A DNA stretch of 64,000 nucleotides, from contig JNLK01000001.1 of the NCBI GenBank assembly GCA_000703065.1, forward strand, positions 2,316,001-2,380,000, read 5' to 3'. This DNA is from Lachnospiraceae bacterium AC2029. GTDB taxonomy: Bacteria; Bacillota; Clostridia; Lachnospirales; Lachnospiraceae. Positions 3,739 to 46,797 of this stretch are shown here, in pieces; the first letter of the stretch is position 1, and the number at the start of each line of letters is the position of its first letter. Position numbers and translations under genes: made by a program. The notes below the pieces were generated by a model that was not told the origin of the DNA, ran no database searches, and saw only the letters and a program-made list of their open reading frames with translations.

Positions 3739-5385
3739 ATGACCACACGACCTACCTATATCATAGGCCATAAGAATCCGGATACGGATTCCATAGCCGC
3801 AGCCATCGCATACCAGTATCTGAAGGCGAAGATGGAGGACGGGATATTCATCGCTTCCCGCTGCGGAAATGTAAACAGTGAGACCCAGTATGTGCTGGAC
3901 CGCTTCGGATTTGAGGCGCCGAGGTTCATCGGTGACGTCCGGACACAGGTCCGGGATATGGAAATGCGCAAGATCCCGGGAGTTTCGGAGGAAATGTCCC
4001 TGAAGCGTGCCTGGGAGATCATGAAGGAGAATAAGGTTGTGACCCTCTGCATCACAGAGGGCAAGCAGCTGAAGGCGCTGATCACAACCGGAGATATCAT
4101 GGAATCCTATATGGGATCCTATGAGGCAAATACACTGTCCGCCGCAAAGACCAGCTATCGGAATATCGTGGATACGCTGGACGGAGAAATGGTGGTGGGA
4201 AATATCGATGATGTCCAGACCGAGGGCAAGGTCATGATCGGTGCCGGAACTCCGGATGCCATGGAGAAGCTGATCGCTCCCCATGATATGGTGATCCTGG
4301 GTGACCGGTATGAGTCCCATTTCTGTGCTATCGAAATGGATGCGGACTGCATCATTGTCTGTGCGGGATCGCCGGTGACGGAGAGCATCCGGCGGCTTGC
4401 AACCGAGAAGGGCTGTAAGATCATCACAACACCGCACAGTACATTTACGGTGGCACGACTCATTTATCAGAGTATGCCCCTCCGGTACTTCATGAAGTCG
4501 GAGGATCTGCTCACCTTCAAAATGGACGATATCATCGAGGATGTGCTGCCCATCATGGCGTCCACGCGGCACCGGTATTTCCCGGTGGTGGATTCCGTGG
4601 GACGTTACAAGGGAATGGTCAGCCGTCGAAACTTCCTGGGTGTTTCCAAGAAGAAGGTGATCCTGGTGGATCACAACGAGAAGAGCCAGGCGGTAAACGG
4701 GATCGAATCGGCGGATCTGCTGGAGATCCTCGATCATCACAGACTCGGAACCATCGCAACGACGCGGCCGGTATTCTTCTGGAATCAGCCCGTTGGCTGC
4801 ACCTGCACCATCATTCACCGGATGTTCTGGGAATATGGGATCGATATCCCGAAGGATGTGGCGGGGCTGATGCTTTCGGCCATTATCTCGGATACGCTGC
4901 TGTTCCGTTCGCCCACCTGTACCGAGGCGGACCGGCAGGCCGGTGAGGAGCTGGCAAGGATCGCGGGAGTGGATCCTGAGGAGCTTGCGACCTCCATGTT
5001 CACTGCAGGCAGTTATGTGGGTGATAAGTCCGCGGATGAGATCCTGCATCAGGATTTCAAGAAGTTTACGGTTGGCGCTCATGCCATCGCTGTGGGACAG
5101 ATCAGCACCATGGACGACAACGAGATATCGCTGATCCGGGACCGGCTGGCACCGGAAATGAACCGGCTTCGGGAGCGGGACGGCGTGGATATGCTGTTCT
5201 TTATGATCACAAATATCCTGAAGGAATCCTCGGAGGTTCTCTTCTCCGGAACCAGTGCGGAGATGATCCTGGAAAATGGCTTCAATATAACCTCCAAGGA
5301 TCACGTCAGCATCTATCTGCCGGGTGTGGTATCCCGTAAGAAGCAGATGCTGCCGACGATCACTAGTACCATAGAAATGAGTTGA
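3739..5385 (+). CDS. Putative manganese-dependent inorganic pyrophosphatase with CBS and DRTGG domains
   Basis: Family II pyrophosphatase of the regulated (CBS-containing) type, 548 residues; plain family II enzymes are about 310. It hydrolyses pyrophosphate in the cytoplasm, with activity normally tuned by adenine nucleotides bound to the CBS pair. The N-terminal DHH domain shows IGHKNPDTDSIAAAIAY. A first CBS repeat (about residues 75-120) is followed by a DRTGG-like region and a second CBS repeat (about 255-300). The catalytic domain then resumes with VDHNEKSQA and the DHH signature ILDHHRLGT. The C-terminal DHHA2 half follows. The ATG has GGGAGGATATTCT upstream and a clear promoter. Confidence 0.9.
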   Translation: MTTRPTYIIGHKNPDTDSIAAAIAYQYLKAKMEDGIFIASRCGNVNSETQYVLDRFGFEAPRFIGDVRTQVRDMEMRKIPGVSEEMSLKRAWEIMKENKVVTLCITEGKQLKALITTGDIMESYMGSYEANTLSAAKTSYRNIVDTLDGEMVVGNIDDVQTEGKVMIGAGTPDAMEKLIAPHDMVILGDRYESHFCAIEMDADCIIVCAGSPVTESIRRLATEKGCKIITTPHSTFTVARLIYQSMPLRYFMKSEDLLTFKMDDIIEDVLPIMASTRHRYFPVVDSVGRYKGMVSRRNFLGVSKKKVILVDHNEKSQAVNGIESADLLEILDHHRLGTIATTRPVFFWNQPVGCTCTIIHRMFWEYGIDIPKDVAGLMLSAIISDTLLFRSPTCTEADRQAGEELARIAGVDPEELATSMFTAGSYVGDKSADEILHQDFKKFTVGAHAIAVGQISTMDDNEISLIRDRLAPEMNRLRERDGVDMLFFMITNILKESSEVLFSGTSAEMILENGFNITSKDHVSIYLPGVVSRKKQMLPTITSTIEMS

Positions 5386-5479
5386 TAACAGGCGACAGCT
5401 CACGTATATCATAAAAATGCTGCAGCTGCGTGCCCGCACGCAGGATCAGCTATTTAGACCAGGGAGAACTACTGAACGC

Positions 5480-6367
5480 ATGAGAGAATTTACATTGATC
5501 ACCGACGTTAATACGGATGTTCATCCGGCCTATGCCGAGAAAGAAGGGATCATCATCCTTCCGCAGTATTATTATTTTGAAGACGGAGTCATCTACGGAG
5601 ATGAGCTCCTGATGGATGAGGACACCTTCTATGCAAGGCTTGCAGCCGGTGAAACGGCAAAGTCCTCCGGTGTGAATCCGGACCGGGCAAAAAGGACCTT
5701 TGAGGAGGAACTGAAGAAGGGAAAGGATATCCTTGCGATCATTTGTTCCTCCGGTCTTTCCATGAGCTACAACACCTGCAAAAATGTGGGTGAGGAGCTG
5801 ATGAACGAGTATCCGGGGTCCAGGATCATCGTTATGGATTCCCTGAGTGAGTCCGGCGGAGCGGGACTTATGCTCTATGTGGCACGGGACATGCAGAAGG
5901 AAGGAAAGTCCATGGAGGAGATCCGGGACTATATCGAATCCATAAAGCAGGATTTCCAGGGACTTTTTGTAGTGGACGACCTCAGGTATCTGGTACGTGG
6001 CGGCCGGCTGTCTCCCTTCAGCGGAGCCTTCGGTACCATGCTGGACATCAAGCCGATCCTCTATCTGAATGAGGAGGGGAAGATCGTTCCCCTGAAGAAG
6101 GTCCGGACCAGGAAGCGTGCCATCAACGAGCTGCTCCGGATCGCGAAGGAAATGGATCCGGATCCCAGGTATATCTATGTGATCCATACCCACAACGAGC
6201 CCTCTGCCCAGGAACTGGCGGACCGGATCGAAGCGGAGCTGGGGATCAAGGTGGACCGGCAGTACAATCTGGGGATCCTCAACAATACCATTGGCGCACA
6301 CACGGGACCGAACGCCCTGGGCTTCGGATTCCTTGCCCGGAAGAAATGGACGGATGTGAAGCTGTAG
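5480..6367 (+). CDS. DegV family protein (fatty-acid-binding fold)
   Basis: DegV (EDD fold) proteins bind fatty acids and, as FakB, present them to a fatty acid kinase. This 295-residue protein starts MREFTLITDVNTDVHPAYAE. The family core is seen in VKSSGVNPD-like text (KSSGVNPDRAKRTFEE), ICSSGLSMSYNTCKN, the central DDLRYLVRGGRLSP and the C-terminal IGAHTGPNALG. The DLRYLxRGGRLS block and IGxHxGPG-like end are family hallmarks. The ATG at 5480 is preferred over one at 5417 because AGGGAGAA lies just upstream and homology starts there. It may be in an operon with the pyrophosphatase (94-base gap) and with the next membrane protein (9-base gap). Confidence 0.88.
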   Translation: MREFTLITDVNTDVHPAYAEKEGIIILPQYYYFEDGVIYGDELLMDEDTFYARLAAGETAKSSGVNPDRAKRTFEEELKKGKDILAIICSSGLSMSYNTCKNVGEELMNEYPGSRIIVMDSLSESGGAGLMLYVARDMQKEGKSMEEIRDYIESIKQDFQGLFVVDDLRYLVRGGRLSPFSGAFGTMLDIKPILYLNEEGKIVPLKKVRTRKRAINELLRIAKEMDPDPRYIYVIHTHNEPSAQELADRIEAELGIKVDRQYNLGILNNTIGAHTGPNALGFGFLARKKWTDVKL

Positions 6368-6376
6368 GGAGGGATC

Positions 6377-7081
6377 ATGGCTTACGAACTGAAACCCAAT
6401 GAAGAACTGGAGGAAATGCGGAAGAAGGAAGAGGATGCGAAGCTGTATGGAAATGCGGCACCGGATCCGGCGCAGGACCTTCCGGTCTATAAGGATATGG
6501 GAGCCTTGGCGGCTACGTCTTCCGGGGTGAATTCTACCCGGCGCAAGATCATTTTCTGGAGCATCGGTCTGGTGATCGTGGCTCTTGGTGTCTTCGGCAT
6601 TATCAAGGTCGTGAATTTCATCGTAAATTCAGGAGGAAAGGACATCTCGGAATATCTGGCCAAGTCGGAATCGGAGATCGCTCAGGAGCTGGGACTGACC
6701 TTCGAACAGCACGATGAGCGTGCGCCCATGATCCAGCAGTACTCCGGCGGTAAGGTAACAGTTCGGAGCGCAGGGGATCTGGAGGTGATCTACATCGACG
6801 GCAAGCAGGTGGGCGTGGCTACGGATGGTCGGGATTACCGGTTCTTCGGGATCGGCATCAATGACATGGGCCCCAGACTGGAATACATTATCACTTATAA
6901 GTATGAGAAGATATTTGTGGTGGCAAATGATTTGACGGGGGGGAATTCAGAGTCGAAATTCTTCTATAATACAGCAGATAATACCTGCCTTGTGATCACG
7001 CTGAACACTACCTCAAACAGAGTGGTCTATATGACCTACTTTACGGATCTGGCACTGATCTCTAAGGATCTTTCATTCTAA
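6377..7081 (+). CDS. Hypothetical single-pass membrane protein
   Basis: A 234-residue protein I do not recognise. Residues 1-53 are charged and Pro/Ala containing, residues about 56-82 form one strong transmembrane helix (IIFWSIGLVIVALGVFGII), and the rest is a soluble, beta-rich domain predicted to be outside the cell. The soluble part has two internally similar stretches around IYIDGKQVGVATDG and EYIITYKYEKIF. It follows the DegV gene by 9 bases with GGGAGGGATC as ribosome binding site, so the two are probably co-transcribed. A hairpin follows its stop. Confidence 0.75.
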   Translation: MAYELKPNEELEEMRKKEEDAKLYGNAAPDPAQDLPVYKDMGALAATSSGVNSTRRKIIFWSIGLVIVALGVFGIIKVVNFIVNSGGKDISEYLAKSESEIAQELGLTFEQHDERAPMIQQYSGGKVTVRSAGDLEVIYIDGKQVGVATDGRDYRFFGIGINDMGPRLEYIITYKYEKIFVVANDLTGGNSESKFFYNTADNTCLVITLNTTSNRVVYMTYFTDLALISKDLSF

Positions 7082-7096
7082 CTGCAGATTACATTA

Positions 7097-7131
7097 CAGG
7101 CGGGGCCATGCAGGGTGCATGACCCCGCCTG
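7097..7131 (+). terminator. Strong GC hairpin after the membrane-protein gene
   Basis: CAGGCGGGG plus CATGCA (7097-7112) pairs with TGCATG plus CCCCGCCTG (7116-7131), nearly perfect. It lacks a U-run, so it is either a weak terminator or an mRNA-end or processing structure ahead of hydE. Confidence 0.5.
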
Positions 7132-7200
7132 GAGACGATATAAGGTCTGAGATGCCTGCACCGGCAGGAACGGTTTCACACACAAAAAACAAGGGGAACG

Positions 7201-8256
7201 ATGGATAAGATACGGGAACAGCTTCATAGACTCCACGAGGGAAAGAGCCTGGATGCGGAGGAGTATCTGGAACTGATCCTCGGTCGGGATGCAGTCCGCG
7301 TGGAGGCAGCCGCTCTTGCCTGTGAGGTGAGAGACCGGATCTACGGAAGGAGAGTCTTCATCCGGGGGCTGATCGAGTTCACCAATTACTGCAGAAACAA
7401 CTGCTATTACTGCGGGATCCGGGCCGGAAATGTAAATGCGGACCGCTACCGGCTCTCTTTGCAGGAGATCCTTACCTGTACGGATGCAGGTTATGAACTG
7501 GGATTCCGGACATTTGTCCTGCAGGGCGGAGAGGATCCGTATTATACGGATGAGATGATGACGGAGCTGGTACGTGGGATCAGAGAACGTCATCCGGACT
7601 GTGCCATCACTCTTTCCGTGGGAGAGAGAAGCCGTGAGACCTACCGCCTGTGGAAGGAAGCCGGGGCGGACCGGTATCTGCTGCGGCATGAAACCATCAA
7701 CCCGGAACACTATGCATCCCTTCATCCGGAGGGGATGAGCCATGAGAACCGGCTGCGGTGTCTCAGGGATCTGAAGGAACTGGGATTTCAGGTGGGAGCC
7801 GGCTTCATGGTGGGTTCTCCGGGACAGACCGAGGAGGATCTTGCAGCAGAGCTTTGCTTTCTGAGGGAGTTTCGCCCTCACATGGTGGGGATCGGACCGT
7901 ATGTGCCGCATCAGGATACGCCCTTTGCGAAGGAGCCTGCGGGGACTGCAGAGCTTACCACATTTCTCCTGTCACTGATCCGGCTGACCCTGCCGGAGGT
8001 GCTGCTGCCTGCCACCACGGCGCTGGGAACCGTGGATGCCCTGGGACGTGAGAAGGGGATCCGTGCGGGAGCAAATGTTGTGATGCCGAACCTTTCCCCG
8101 GTAGATGTCAGAGAGAAATACCTTCTGTATGATCATAAGATCTGTACGGGAGAGGAGGCGGCGCAGTGTATAGCCTGCCTGAAGGAACGGATCCGCACCA
8201 CCGGCTGTGAGATCGTGGTGGACCGCGGAGATCATAAGGATAAAGAGAGACAGTAA
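7201..8256 (+). CDS. hydE: [FeFe] hydrogenase H-cluster radical SAM maturase HydE
   Basis: HydE is a radical SAM enzyme that helps build the 2Fe subcluster of [FeFe] hydrogenase; in current models it works on the HydG-derived Fe(CO)2(CN)-cysteine synthon before assembly on HydF. The protein is 351 residues, normal for the family. The radical SAM cluster motif CX3CX2C is C64, C68 and C71 (NYCRNNCYYCGIR), followed by the typical LQGGEDPYYTDE and, later, VGSPGQTEEDL and MVGIGPYVPHQDTPF. The ATG has AAGGGGAACG immediately upstream. It is the first gene of a hydE, phosphoglycerol transferase, hydG, hydF cluster that ends at the terminator near 12930. Confidence 0.95.
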   Translation: MDKIREQLHRLHEGKSLDAEEYLELILGRDAVRVEAAALACEVRDRIYGRRVFIRGLIEFTNYCRNNCYYCGIRAGNVNADRYRLSLQEILTCTDAGYELGFRTFVLQGGEDPYYTDEMMTELVRGIRERHPDCAITLSVGERSRETYRLWKEAGADRYLLRHETINPEHYASLHPEGMSHENRLRCLRDLKELGFQVGAGFMVGSPGQTEEDLAAELCFLREFRPHMVGIGPYVPHQDTPFAKEPAGTAELTTFLLSLIRLTLPEVLLPATTALGTVDALGREKGIRAGANVVMPNLSPVDVREKYLLYDHKICTGEEAAQCIACLKERIRTTGCEIVVDRGDHKDKERQ

Positions 8257-44430: not shown

Positions 44431-45792
44431 ATGAAGAAGGACAGGATCAAAAGAAGAAAAAGCATTCGGCTGGCAGCGGCGGCCCTGACGCTGGCGCTGG
44501 CTCTGACCGGCTGCGGAAGCAGTGCCGGAGATACGGGAAGCAGCGGTCAGGCAGTCACGCCGGATCAGCCGGCACCCGCCGCATCCACGGTGAATCTTTC
44601 CGCAAATGTATCGAAGGTCAGCATCCCGGAGACACAGATGACCGAAAGTCACCAGTCATCACTGGCGAAGGGCGGCATCGCACTCCTGAAGAAGACCATT
44701 GAGATCACGAATGACGGAAAGGCAAATGTACTGATCAGCCCCATTTCCCTGCAGATGGCACTGGGAATGACAGCTGCAGGATCCGATGCGGGAAGCAAGA
44801 CCCGGTCGGAACTGATGGCGGTGCTGATGCCCGGAAGTCAGGAGGAGCCTGCTGCTCTGCATGCGGAGATGGCAAGCTTTGCGGAACGCATGAAGAGCTC
44901 CCGGGACGTGGAGTGGAATGTGGCAAATTCCGTATGGCTGAACGATAACGGAGAAGTAAAGCTGGCTGATGAATTCCTGTCCACGGCTTCAAATTATTAT
45001 AAGGCAGAGCTGTACTCGGCGCCCTTCAATGAGACTACGTTGAAGGAGATCAATGACTGGGTCTGCGAGCATACAAAGGAACGGATCCCTACGATCCTGA
45101 ATGAACTGGATCCGGATGCCAGGATCGCCCTTGTAAATGCGGTCTGCTTTGATGCGGAGTGGGAAGAACCATACGAAGAATACGACGTTTCGAAGGACAT
45201 GACATTCACGAATGCCGACGGCTCGAAGGTGAATGCCACCATGCTCTCCAGCACGGAATCCCGTGTCATCCAGCTGGCCGGTGGACTTGGCTTCGTCCGT
45301 CCCTACAAGGGAGGTCAGTACAGCTTCGTAGGCATCCTTCCGCCGGAAGGAATGAGCACAGGAGACTACCTGCAGAAGCTGCTGGACAGCGGGGAGGACT
45401 TCTCCAATGCATACCTGAATTCCCATACCTCCAGAGACGTGTACGTCCGGATCCCGGAATTCAAGACCGAATTCGGCTCCAACATGGATGAGATCCTGAA
45501 GGGCCTTGGGGTAAATGAAGCCTATACCAACGGAGCCAATTTCCATGAAATGGTTACGGAGGACAGCGCGCCGGTAAAGATCGGAACCGTGGAGCATAAG
45601 GCCATGATCAAGGTTGACCGGACAGGAACCGAAGCAGCTGCATCAACAGTGGTTGTTATGGATAAGGTTACGGCCGTTGAGCCCATGGAGGAGCCCTACA
45701 GGGTCTACCTGGACCGCCCCTTCGTCTATGCCATCGTTGATGACGCCACCGGAGTCCCCGTATTCCTGGGAACCCAGAACACGATGAACTGA
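44431..45792 (+). CDS. Lipoprotein serpin (serine protease inhibitor)
   Basis: A 453-residue serpin. The N-terminus is a lipoprotein signal (RRKSIRLAAAALTLALALTGC; lipobox LTGC) and a 30-residue Ser/Gly/Pro linker. The serpin fold begins near residue 75 (LISPISLQMALGMTAAGSDAGS, NVANSVWLN, LVNAVCFDAEWEEPY). The hinge of the reactive loop is VDRTGTEAAASTVVV: small residues after Glu, the pattern of inhibitory serpins. The end DRPFVYAIVDDATGVPVFLG is standard. It would trap a protease at the outer cell surface, perhaps host or competitor enzymes (inference). The start is moderately supported by AAAAGGAC. Confidence 0.93.
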   Translation: MKKDRIKRRKSIRLAAAALTLALALTGCGSSAGDTGSSGQAVTPDQPAPAASTVNLSANVSKVSIPETQMTESHQSSLAKGGIALLKKTIEITNDGKANVLISPISLQMALGMTAAGSDAGSKTRSELMAVLMPGSQEEPAALHAEMASFAERMKSSRDVEWNVANSVWLNDNGEVKLADEFLSTASNYYKAELYSAPFNETTLKEINDWVCEHTKERIPTILNELDPDARIALVNAVCFDAEWEEPYEEYDVSKDMTFTNADGSKVNATMLSSTESRVIQLAGGLGFVRPYKGGQYSFVGILPPEGMSTGDYLQKLLDSGEDFSNAYLNSHTSRDVYVRIPEFKTEFGSNMDEILKGLGVNEAYTNGANFHEMVTEDSAPVKIGTVEHKAMIKVDRTGTEAAASTVVVMDKVTAVEPMEEPYRVYLDRPFVYAIVDDATGVPVFLGTQNTMN

Positions 45793-45805
45793 TAAAAGTG
45801 TACCA

Positions 45806-45951
45806 GGCCCTGACAGCTAGGTCCATTTACTTCTTTCGTTACCATGGCGGAGGTTGCGGGTTCGAATCCCGTCGGCTGCCTGCAGCTGTAGCTCAAAGGT
45901 TCAGAGCAACGCCCAAAAAGAAATGGACCGATACCGTCAGGGTCTTTGTTT
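45806..45951 (+). ncRNA. Circularly permuted tRNA / tRNA-like RNA (candidate new RNA)
   Basis: A 3' tRNA half comes first: GGCGG (45846-45850), variable loop AGGTT, T-stem GCGGG/CCCGT with loop TTCGAAT (45856-45872), 3' acceptor CGGCTGC (45873-45879). After only CT comes the 5' half: acceptor GCAGCTG (45882-45888), T8, A9, D-stem GCTC/GAGC (45891-45894, 45904-45907), and ACGCC (45909-45913). The 7-bp acceptor (one G-T), T-stem and D-stem all pair. T8, A14, A15-T48, G18, G19, A21, G53-C61, T54, T55, C56 and A58 are present. CGCC pairs with GGCG as anticodon stem. Outside it GGTCCATTT (45820-45828) pairs perfectly with AAATGGACC (45921-45929), and GGCCCTGAC (45806) with GTCAGGGTC (45936). TTTGTTT follows. 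The anticodon cannot be assigned: CGT (Thr-like, 45837-45839) lies in the unpaired flank. The arms look Thr-tRNA-like. No CCA is encoded. Confidence 0.8.
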
Positions 45952-45984: not shown

Positions 45985-46797
45985 ATGAGAATCGGGATAT
46001 TTGATTCCGGGATCGGTGGGCTTTCCGTACTCCATGAGGCATACCACCGGCTGCCGGATCAGGAATATATATTTTATGCAGACACGGATCATGTGCCGTA
46101 CGGAGAGCGGGATCCGAAGGAAATACTTGGCTATGTGAGAGAGACGGCTCAGTTTCTGATGGAGCAGGGGGTTGATGCACTTGTGATCGCCTGCAATACG
46201 GCAACCAGCGTTGCGGTACGCATCCTGCGGCAGGAACTGTCCCTCCCCATCATCGGGATGGAACCGGCGGTGAAGCCGGCAGTGGAACACACCGACCAGA
46301 GGAGAGTACTGGTCATGGCCACACCGGTGACGCTTCGGGAGGCAAAGCTGAAGTCTCTTATCGCACGTGTGGACGGACAGCACAGGGTGGATCTTCTGCC
46401 CATGCCGGAGCTTGTCCGCTTTGCGGAAGCGGAACAGTTCGATACGCCGGAGCTGAAGGAGTATCTGACGAAGCAGTTTTCGACGATCCGGCCGGAAGAG
46501 TATTCGGCGCTGGTGCTGGGCTGCACCCATTTCAACTACTTCAAGGATCTGTATCGCAGATTCTTCCCGGAGGACACCGCGCTGGTGGACGGAAACGACG
46601 GAACTGTACGTTATCTGGCGCATCTCCTTTCACTGGATATCCGGGATGAGCTGGGTGAAGTGCATTTTGAAACCACAGATCAGCTGTTGGAGCATACCGC
46701 CTACTATACCTCCGGAAAATCCGTTACGGATCAGGAGACGCTGGAACATTTCCTCCGTCTTCATAACCGCCTGGAGGAAATGAGGAAGATCCGATAA
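45985..46797 (+). CDS. murI: Glutamate racemase
   Basis: Converts L- to D-glutamate for peptidoglycan. The 270-residue protein has the two catalytic cysteines in IACNTATSVAV and VLGCTHFNYF and the opening IGIFDSGIGGLSVL, plus YADTDHVPYGER and IGMEPAVKPA. Length and motif order are standard. The start has no Shine-Dalgarno sequence but lies at the expected transcription start, so the mRNA may be leaderless. It is preceded by the permuted tRNA-like RNA and followed by a terminator. Confidence 0.95.
   Translation: MRIGIFDSGIGGLSVLHEAYHRLPDQEYIFYADTDHVPYGERDPKEILGYVRETAQFLMEQGVDALVIACNTATSVAVRILRQELSLPIIGMEPAVKPAVEHTDQRRVLVMATPVTLREAKLKSLIARVDGQHRVDLLPMPELVRFAEAEQFDTPELKEYLTKQFSTIRPEEYSALVLGCTHFNYFKDLYRRFFPEDTALVDGNDGTVRYLAHLLSLDIRDELGEVHFETTDQLLEHTAYYTSGKSVTDQETLEHFLRLHNRLEEMRKIR

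Follow-up and report, generated by a model that had tools for sequence, protein, structure and literature searches.

A circularly permuted tRNA-like RNA linked to an MXAN_6230/SCO0854-type protein gene in Lachnospiraceae, probably the RNA of a Ro/Y-like particle

We examined a stretch of 64,000 nucleotides from Lachnospiraceae bacterium AC2029 (assembly GCA_000703065.1, contig JNLK01000001.1, positions 2,316,001 to 2,380,000 of the forward strand), referred to here as 'the window' and numbered from its first letter. Positions 45805–45951 of its forward strand code for a small structured non-coding RNA, the head of which is a circularly permuted tRNA fold. The RNA lies between a serpin-like open reading frame (ORF; 44431–45792, with its stop 13 nt before position 45806) and a murI-like ORF (45985–46797). 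Both are on the forward strand, carry names from a preliminary description of the sequence, and are given for context only.

From 5′ to 3′ the RNA consists of one strand of an outer helix (P1), AGCUA, one strand of a second helix (P2), UUACUUC, a linker, the tRNA 3′ half (anticodon-stem strand, variable region, T arm and acceptor strand) and a CT loop, followed by the tRNA 5′ half (acceptor strand, UA, D arm and anticodon-stem strand), a linker, the other strand of P2, GAUACC, the other strand of P1 and a T-rich stretch. The 5′ strand of P1 (AGGCCCTGAC, 45805–45814) forms 10 basepairs (bp) with 45936–45945, including a 9-bp core (GGCCCTGAC at 45806–45814 with GTCAGGGTC at 45936–45944) that contains one G-U pair. 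The conserved internal loop is made up of AGCUA (45815–45819, invariant in 36 aligned units described below) and GAUACC (45930–45935; family consensus GAUAUC/AAUAUC). P2 follows with 9 bp between GGTCCATTT (45820–45828) and AAATGGACC (45921–45929), and has UUACUUC (45827–45833) at its inner end, of which UUACUU is invariant in the same alignment. The 3′ strand of P1 is followed by the T-rich stretch TTGTTTGCAT (together 45936–45951), a possible terminator; a consensus scan, which allows loops of 3–8 nt only, called none for this copy.

Within the head, the T arm (GCGGG TTCGAAT CCCGT, 45856–45872) has its stem at 45856–45860 and 45868–45872, and the D arm (GCTC AAAGGTTCA GAGC, 45891–45907) at 45891–45894 and 45904–45907, and the tertiary pair 15–48 is A15-U48 in this copy. 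The acceptor strands (CGGCTGC, 45873–45879; GCAGCTG, 45882–45888) form 7 bp with one G-U. The anticodon-stem equivalents lie at 45846–45850 (tRNA positions 39–43) and 45909–45913 (27–31). The preliminary description had named the acceptor, T, D, P1 and P2 pairings, all of which are present, and a CT join between the normal tRNA termini, which corresponds to 45880–45881 and, as it also stated, has no CCA. It had further reported an A-G mismatch at 27–43 as a lack of pairing; the mismatch is there, yet 28–42, 29–41, 30–40 and 31–39 do pair (GGCGG/ACGCC), giving an anticodon stem of four pairs.

A scan of both strands of the window for permuted tRNA folds, a check that the preliminary description had proposed, returned exactly one place, 45806–45951; applied to first-order Markov versions of the window (768,000 strand-bases), it returned nothing. 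None of 200 shuffles folded as well as the window unit (z −3.45), and the minimum-energy fold of the single sequence recovered the tRNA arms only in part. ARAGORN made no tRNA call anywhere in the window, and with curated thresholds Rfam gave nothing in the region. At a permissive threshold, the Rfam model RF02553 (YrlA) matched over its whole length with 35.4 bits (E 1.7e-6), below its gathering cut-off of 69. Bacterial Y RNAs of the YrlA type are a published permuted tRNA mimic, which the preliminary description had missed: the paired 5′ and 3′ ends of YrlA form a long stem that bears a tRNA-like domain complete with D, T and acceptor arms (PMC8394870), and this domain superposes on tRNA with a circular permutation (PMC11472068). 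Like YrlA, the window RNA has T, D and acceptor arms arranged in a circularly permuted tRNA-like module, and its two ends pair to form a basal stem interrupted by an internal loop, with P1 and P2 as the helices on either side.

The same Rfam model, run on 61 genomes (this one and 60 relatives), gave matches below its cut-off in many of them. Thirty loci were returned, of which 19 (L001–L015 and L017–L020, the window included) hold no tRNA gene and 11 are ordinary tRNA genes read across. Wider DNA was taken for 17 other genomes with such a tRNA-free match, and in 15 of them the unit is followed by a homologous protein gene, a linkage that had also escaped the preliminary description; in the remaining two the match lies near a contig end (L048, L050), and the contig of G024 ends after the first 40 residues of the protein. 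The genome of AC2029 itself contains two strict motifs, one being the window unit and the other lying outside the window, at G000:C1:2385170; an ORF of 685 residues (2385241–2387298) begins 71 nt further on. A reversed control pattern occurs 3 and 2 times in this genome, so the number of strict motifs is not above control, and it is their position and structure that serve as evidence.

A scan of genome contigs with the protein produced 74 loci, a set that overlaps with the one obtained from the RNA. They are mostly titled Lachnospiraceae or other Clostridia and come largely from gut metagenome assemblies; some are titled Chloroflexi, Planctomycetia, Atopobiaceae and others, and the isolates among them include Eubacterium ruminantium FB3002 as well as the Lachnospiraceae bacteria C6A11, LC2019 and NE2001. 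Within 1200 nt upstream of the gene we counted 116 strict motifs, in 61 of the 74 loci, compared with 7 elsewhere on the same strand and none on the other (854,553 bases); since the sequences are related, these locus counts are not independent, and the shuffle counts given below are not probabilities. A covariance model built from the units (R1) added four loci (L077, L081, L082 and L101), and variants were seen by eye in L085, L086 and L103. The upstream sequence is almost absent in L051 and L110, is 212 nt long in L080 and holds an assembly gap mark in L073. One, two, three or four units are present in 23, 24, 13 and 2 loci, respectively, of 62 (the gene of AC2029 included), and the neighbouring genes are otherwise diverse (62 nearest upstream and 65 of 71 nearest downstream ORFs scanned; 25 of 66 and 25 of 68 families listed). 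Across 61 genomes of the genus, the protein is present in 34, a permuted unit (E 1e-8) in 26, and both in 24 (Fisher p 4e-7, with related genomes treated as independent).

Thirty-seven of 40 candidate permuted units could be parsed (two of the failures have heads in ordinary tRNA order; the third is L098), and 36 units from 32 loci and the window, with L074 left out for a misassigned 3′ strand of P2, make up the alignment; L081, L082, L190, L191 and the viral and phage units, found later, stand outside it. The parser required at least five of seven acceptor pairs, at least four T-stem pairs, a loop of the form T[TC][CA][AG]A and a join of at most 15 nt, and five of the eight P2 pairs served to pick the 3′ strand. 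The pairing figures for the T, D and acceptor stems and those five P2 pairs are therefore inflated, having been chosen partly by pairing; the anticodon stem, P1, the three inner P2 pairs and 15–48 were not so chosen. In the 36 units, 98.1% of 1075 pair cells form (34–49% when partners are slid against each other), and 25 of 30 pairs show changes on both sides, with 220 double-change cells versus 54.5 in shuffles. Individually, the T stem is paired in 100% of cells, the acceptor stem in 99.6% (double changes in six of seven pairs), the D stem in 99.3%, P2 in 98.6% over its eight pairs (seven with double changes) and the three inner pairs of P1 in 97.2% (double changes in each). Over 35 units typed as A (see below), five positions of P1 are 98% paired, versus at most 80% with shuffled partners. 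RNAalifold, unaided, recovered the same helices with the exception of the short anticodon stem, which at a fixed offset pairs at 27–43 in 34, 28–42 in 30, 29–41 in 33, 30–40 in 19 and 31–39 in 16 of the 37 parsed units. Homologous units with covarying stems, for which the preliminary description had advised searching, are thus present in relatives, and this covariation, seen in a set that includes the window's own unit, excludes chance.

The loop of the T arm reads TTCGA in 33 and TTCAA in 4 of the 37 units. The tertiary pair 15–48 is G-C in 21, A-U in 14 and otherwise in 2 (p 4e-9), and in 22 less similar rows it is followed in 20 (p 4e-5), so that selection appears to maintain a tRNA-like three-dimensional fold. 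The search pattern itself contained AG[CAT]TA and UUACUU, and [AG]AT[AT] was required for a unit to be counted; a script sorted 119 units into types A, B and C (36, 16 and 67, with 6 corrected by hand), and 110 of the 119 have the 3′ motif and were counted. AGCUA is present in 109 of these 110, and the opposite side of the loop reads GATAT in 42 and AATAT in 37. The Rfam model makes no use of the motif pattern, and AGCTA..TTACTT is found in 18 of the 19 tRNA-free places that it returned (the exception is L018, in G028). UUACUUC was also met, without being searched for, in two units linked to TROVE genes (L157 and L158) and in the phage Weasels2.

Linked units carry heads of several kinds: a permuted tRNA, a T arm only, or a short hairpin. 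In two sister units the same AGCUA/P2 scaffold encloses a tRNA-like fold whose halves stand in the ordinary order (L090 5460–5531 and L092 638–711, one of them called tRNA-Ile(AAT) by ARAGORN); the scaffold, and not the permutation, is therefore the constant part, and the heads appear to be interchangeable upon it. ARAGORN calls a further tRNA at L090 5063–5135. In 63 short units, P1 is 74% paired compared with at most 53% when shuffled, and each pair of P2 forms in 61–63 of the 63.

The partner protein is about 685 residues long. NCBIfam NF041916, the MXAN_6230/SCO0854 RING family, matches residues 287–611 of three members with 93–109 bits, short of its curated cut-off of 600 bits. The protein alignment holds 39 of the 74 loci (a choice of full-length matches; L122 was dropped, its joined match holding stops). 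In a profile comparison of the partner with 11 MXAN_6230/SCO0854 proteins in hhalign, the probability was 100 (E 2.6e-63, columns 49–655), making the partner homologous to that family over most of its length; unlike the family's name, no RING domain is reported for it. TerD was matched in only 2 of 39 relatives (best E 2.7e-4), which makes 'TerD-like' a weak label for the C-terminal part. Pfam gave no family for the protein, PADLOC gave no defence label for three members, and a sequence search of solved structures in the PDB gave nothing solid (one match at E 1.3). A full-text literature search found no paper naming MXAN_6230 or SCO0854, and among the full-text matches listed, judged by title and start of abstract and with most subscription papers outside the scope, none linked this protein family to Y RNAs.

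RNA-repair genes sometimes lie near the partner. RtcB lies within the fetched flanks of 6 of the 74 loci, on both sides in the near relatives L052 and L053. In Rhodococcus phage Weasels2 an RtcB gene follows a homologue at a distance of about 3 kb, and a Variovorax plasmid carries rtcR and a homologue with three genes between them. In L107 and L108 the nearest upstream ORF is a DUF2828 gene. Because AC2029 has about three RtcB genes, we regard the occurrence of RtcB in the six related loci as suggestive rather than decisive.

Both RNA and protein are also found in viruses. Nine contigs of the viral collection (17.6–164 kb) encode the protein; strict motifs precede the gene in eight of them, and in the ninth (L171) TTACTTC units can be made out by eye. 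L170 and L173 each contain a permuted unit of 81.8 bits and share their upstream sequence, as do L176 and L177. In L170, ARAGORN calls twelve tRNA genes in a 9.7-kb stretch around the protein and its units. Distant homologues occur in ten phage records (two of them duplicates), seven of which were fetched; permuted units lie near the homologue in RcXuper (one), RpAliso (two) and Weasels2 (one).

The window RNA thus belongs to a family with a conserved fold, linked to a particular protein gene and present with it in bacteria and viral contigs. Taken as a whole, these observations are best explained, in our view with good confidence, by a particle of a Y-RNA-like RNA and an MXAN_6230/SCO0854-type protein that most likely handles damaged tRNA. 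The RNA would probably serve in a Ro/Y-like particle whose protein partner is new and which acts in tRNA repair or quality control; that it is linked to proteins of a family with no known function suggests that RNA-repair particles come in one more kind. The mechanism we propose is modelled on Ro/Y ribonucleoproteins (RNPs) as described in PMC8394870 and PMC7790460. The ends of the RNA would form a two-helix scaffold (P1, the AGCUA/GAUAUC internal loop, P2 and UUACUUC), the probable binding site of the MXAN_6230/SCO0854-family protein encoded at G000:C1:2385241-2387298, and the scaffold would display the permuted tRNA-like head. With its acceptor strands joined by a short loop, the head cannot be charged or decode without processing. 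It may instead dock tRNA-handling enzymes, either RtcB ligase or, as in the Ro RNP, PNPase; according to PMC7790460, a repair operon can encode YrlA together with RtcB. Alternatively the head could be a decoy that diverts tRNA nucleases, a role that PMC7790460 suggests for the head of YrlA. The short units in the leader of the gene may in addition let the protein regulate its own mRNA.

Several results weigh against this reading. The window copy stands alone, some 23 kb away from the partner gene, and has no recognisable promoter, and none of the RtcB genes of AC2029 (about three and a fragment, at about 771–805 kb and 2093–2095 kb of G000:C1) lies near the partner gene. Scan and model find no unit upstream of the gene in L072 and L097; no unit is found either near seven more typical MXAN_6230/SCO0854 proteins (L159–L162, and the three plasmid loci L181, L186 and L187 fetched of 24 records). 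Phages LpeD, WXIN, SCTP-2 and LR745208 have no unit by scan and no full-length model match (LR745208 has one partial match of 25 bits). Within the genus, a permuted unit at E 1e-8 is absent from 10 of 34 protein-bearing genomes, and the protein from 2 of 26 RNA-bearing ones (G028, which has a Band_7/RtcB operon, and G589, a fragmented assembly). In the 11 units with a T arm only, P1 pairs no better than when shuffled (0.67 versus a mean of 0.65). Finally, hhalign gives a probability of only 0.2 for homology of the partner to a small TROVE set and 0.1 for TROVE and the wider family; the value for the partner and DUF2828 is 0.7, and for DUF2828 and TROVE in the same set-up it is 94. With no detectable TROVE homology, a ring fold of the partner is unproven.

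The explanation that competes best concerns the window copy and not the family, and holds that this copy has been displaced and is dead, the rest of the family being functional. The missing promoter and the A-G mismatch at 27–43 would fit decay, as would the fact that homology to relatives ends at or near the edges of the unit. All other helices are intact, P1 is long (10 bp) and not eroded, and the unit scores 103.3 bits with our model, within the 97–126 bits of most linked copies of the genus; over 45808–45946 it shares 90% identity with the linked unit of L059. On this balance we consider a dead copy unlikely, and the copy may either be expressed from the serpin transcript or be decaying. 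In many linked arrays a TTGACA/TATAAT-like sequence can be read just before P1 of the first unit. Of 119 units, 28 (24%) have TTTT in the 10 nt after P1, compared with 4.2% of random locus windows and 6.8% of windows in the 300 nt upstream, an excess that fits termination at P1. A second unit off its gene's contig, L190 6146–6278 (G578), has an altered T loop (GTTGGAT) and no GG in its D loop, and is perhaps decaying.

These promoter-like sequences and the TTTT excess also bear on whether the units are separate RNAs at all. They could be cis-acting leader elements of the downstream gene that sense tRNA or protein, as might be expected from their frequent succession and from the position of the last unit, which in 45 of 62 loci begins no more than 150 nt ahead of the start codon. 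Promoter-like sequence before the first unit and TTTT after P1 argue for separate transcripts, and leader elements would not account for the intact fold of the window unit 23 kb away or for L190, off the contig of its gene. We judge an exclusively leader function to be improbable.

Slightly less probable again is that the window RNA is a true bacterial Y RNA (YrlA) working with an Rsr/TROVE protein in trans. The full-length RF02553 match would agree with this, as would the units near clostridial TROVE genes, which share the head type and TTACTTC with the family described here and which our model also finds (L157 62.5 bits, L158 40.1). Matches of this model at or below about 45 bits are ambiguous: one of 45.4 bits in G120 is a tRNA cluster by eye, while L033 (45.2) and L158 are real. 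The Rfam model gives one TROVE-linked clostridial unit no more than 38.5 bits; its threshold therefore fails to tell clostridial Y RNAs and this family apart. The genome of AC2029 gave no match to TROVE (PF05731) in a search that gave a match in one of 14 control genomes, which led us to reject Rsr in trans; TROVE is present in only 2 of 246 genomes of the order and 6 of 299 in a draw from the phylum, and in 15 of the 17 genomes reached from the RNA it is a different protein gene that adjoins. DUF2828 also had no match in AC2029, in a search without positive control. The family differs further from YrlA in the AGCUA/GAUAUC scaffold, in its MXAN_6230/SCO0854-like partner with no detectable TROVE homology, and in having 1–4 units per gene with varying heads. 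Because TROVE, the defining protein, was looked for and not found, we do not file the RNA as YrlA, although it would work like a Y RNA.

The permuted tRNA genes of algae and archaea, in which the 3′ half precedes the 5′ half as it does here, mature into tRNAs. The preliminary description had listed a decoding tRNA, made by processing and ligation, beside a mimic or a regulator. In favour of a decoding tRNA are the matched halves of one tRNA in reversed order, the tertiary bases with the 15–48 covariation, and the RtcB ligases of the genome; CCA could be added after processing, and it follows the acceptor strand, inside the joining loop, in L170 and L173 (ACCA) and in both RpAliso units (e.g. 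L170 4878–4920, L184 2996–3190). These viral and phage heads look as if they were derived from CCA-encoding tRNA genes. Unlike the algal and archaeal genes, none of the 37 parsed units has a CCA, their joins are short (1–11 nt: TTCG in five, GAAA in two, also TT, CT and others; outside this set, L081 has a join of 60 nt), and P2 and its motifs take the place of the anticodon loop in all 36 aligned units, which is partly a result of selection but holds for the 18 of 19 places found without the motifs. The scaffold is constant where the permutation is not, as the two ordinary-order sister units demonstrate. Since the acceptor part belongs to a continuous chain in each case, we read the RNA as a mimic, plausibly also a regulator, and give a decoding function very little credence.

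Remaining candidates were rejected: a deletion relic of tandem tRNA genes, because no tRNA stands beside the window unit and its own halves match, the weak RF02553 matches elsewhere being ordinary tRNA genes read across (L016, L021–L030); an abundant repeat element, with only two strict motifs in the genome (two forward, none reverse); and tmRNA, with no match at the Rfam gathering threshold, only a 15-nt T-arm match of 8.5 bits, and none by ARAGORN.

Related units stand beside further genes. Two precede a DUF2828-DUF7788 gene (L155 in G103, 61.9 bits; L156 in G219, 59.4 bits) and have a permuted or partial tRNA; in L155 this gene is followed by RtcB and RlaP, in L156 by ORFs similar by look alone. 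The L155 and L156 units contain a recurring ACAGCAAT motif. In L189 (G028:C13), RtcB, a tRNA-like unit (6219–6339, 53.5 bits) and a Band_7 gene stand in a row at 4864–7667; this unit is without AGCUA..UUACUU and fails the strict scan. In a 2016 survey of RNA-repair systems, Burroughs and Aravind reportedly described TROVE and SPFH/Band-7 as scaffolds accompanied by Y RNAs and by a new tRNA-like RNA. Like the tRNA-like RNA that RtcB-SPFH/Band-7 operons are said to contain, the L189 unit lies between RtcB and Band_7, and it is possibly that RNA; the partner protein of those operons differs from the MXAN_6230/SCO0854-like one.

Permuted tRNA mimicry accordingly occurs near four proteins (TROVE, DUF2828, Band_7 and the MXAN_6230/SCO0854-like one), so what such particles have in common may be the tRNA-like head and not Ro60. 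A broader proposal, which we put forward tentatively and hold to be a little less probable than its contrary, is that MXAN_6230/SCO0854-type proteins constitute a further, non-TROVE class of Ro-like RNP proteins. They would be guided by modular Y-like RNAs whose heads can be exchanged on one scaffold (a permuted tRNA, a tRNA in ordinary order, only a T arm, or no head), be carried by gut bacteria and phages, and sense, repair or shield tRNA in phage-host conflict, while a leader hairpin copying the scaffold would feed back on protein synthesis. The linkage described here connects proteins that had no assigned function with a defined RNA and probably with tRNA repair, and the joined acceptor, the covarying 15–48 pair and the swapping of heads offer handles on the purpose of the head, a question that Y RNAs pose as well. 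As a minor observation on the phages, matches to the alphaproteobacterial, permuted form of tmRNA precede the permuted units of RcXuper and RpAliso (L180 2071–2487 and L184 2621–2927) and are not among the annotated features listed for them.
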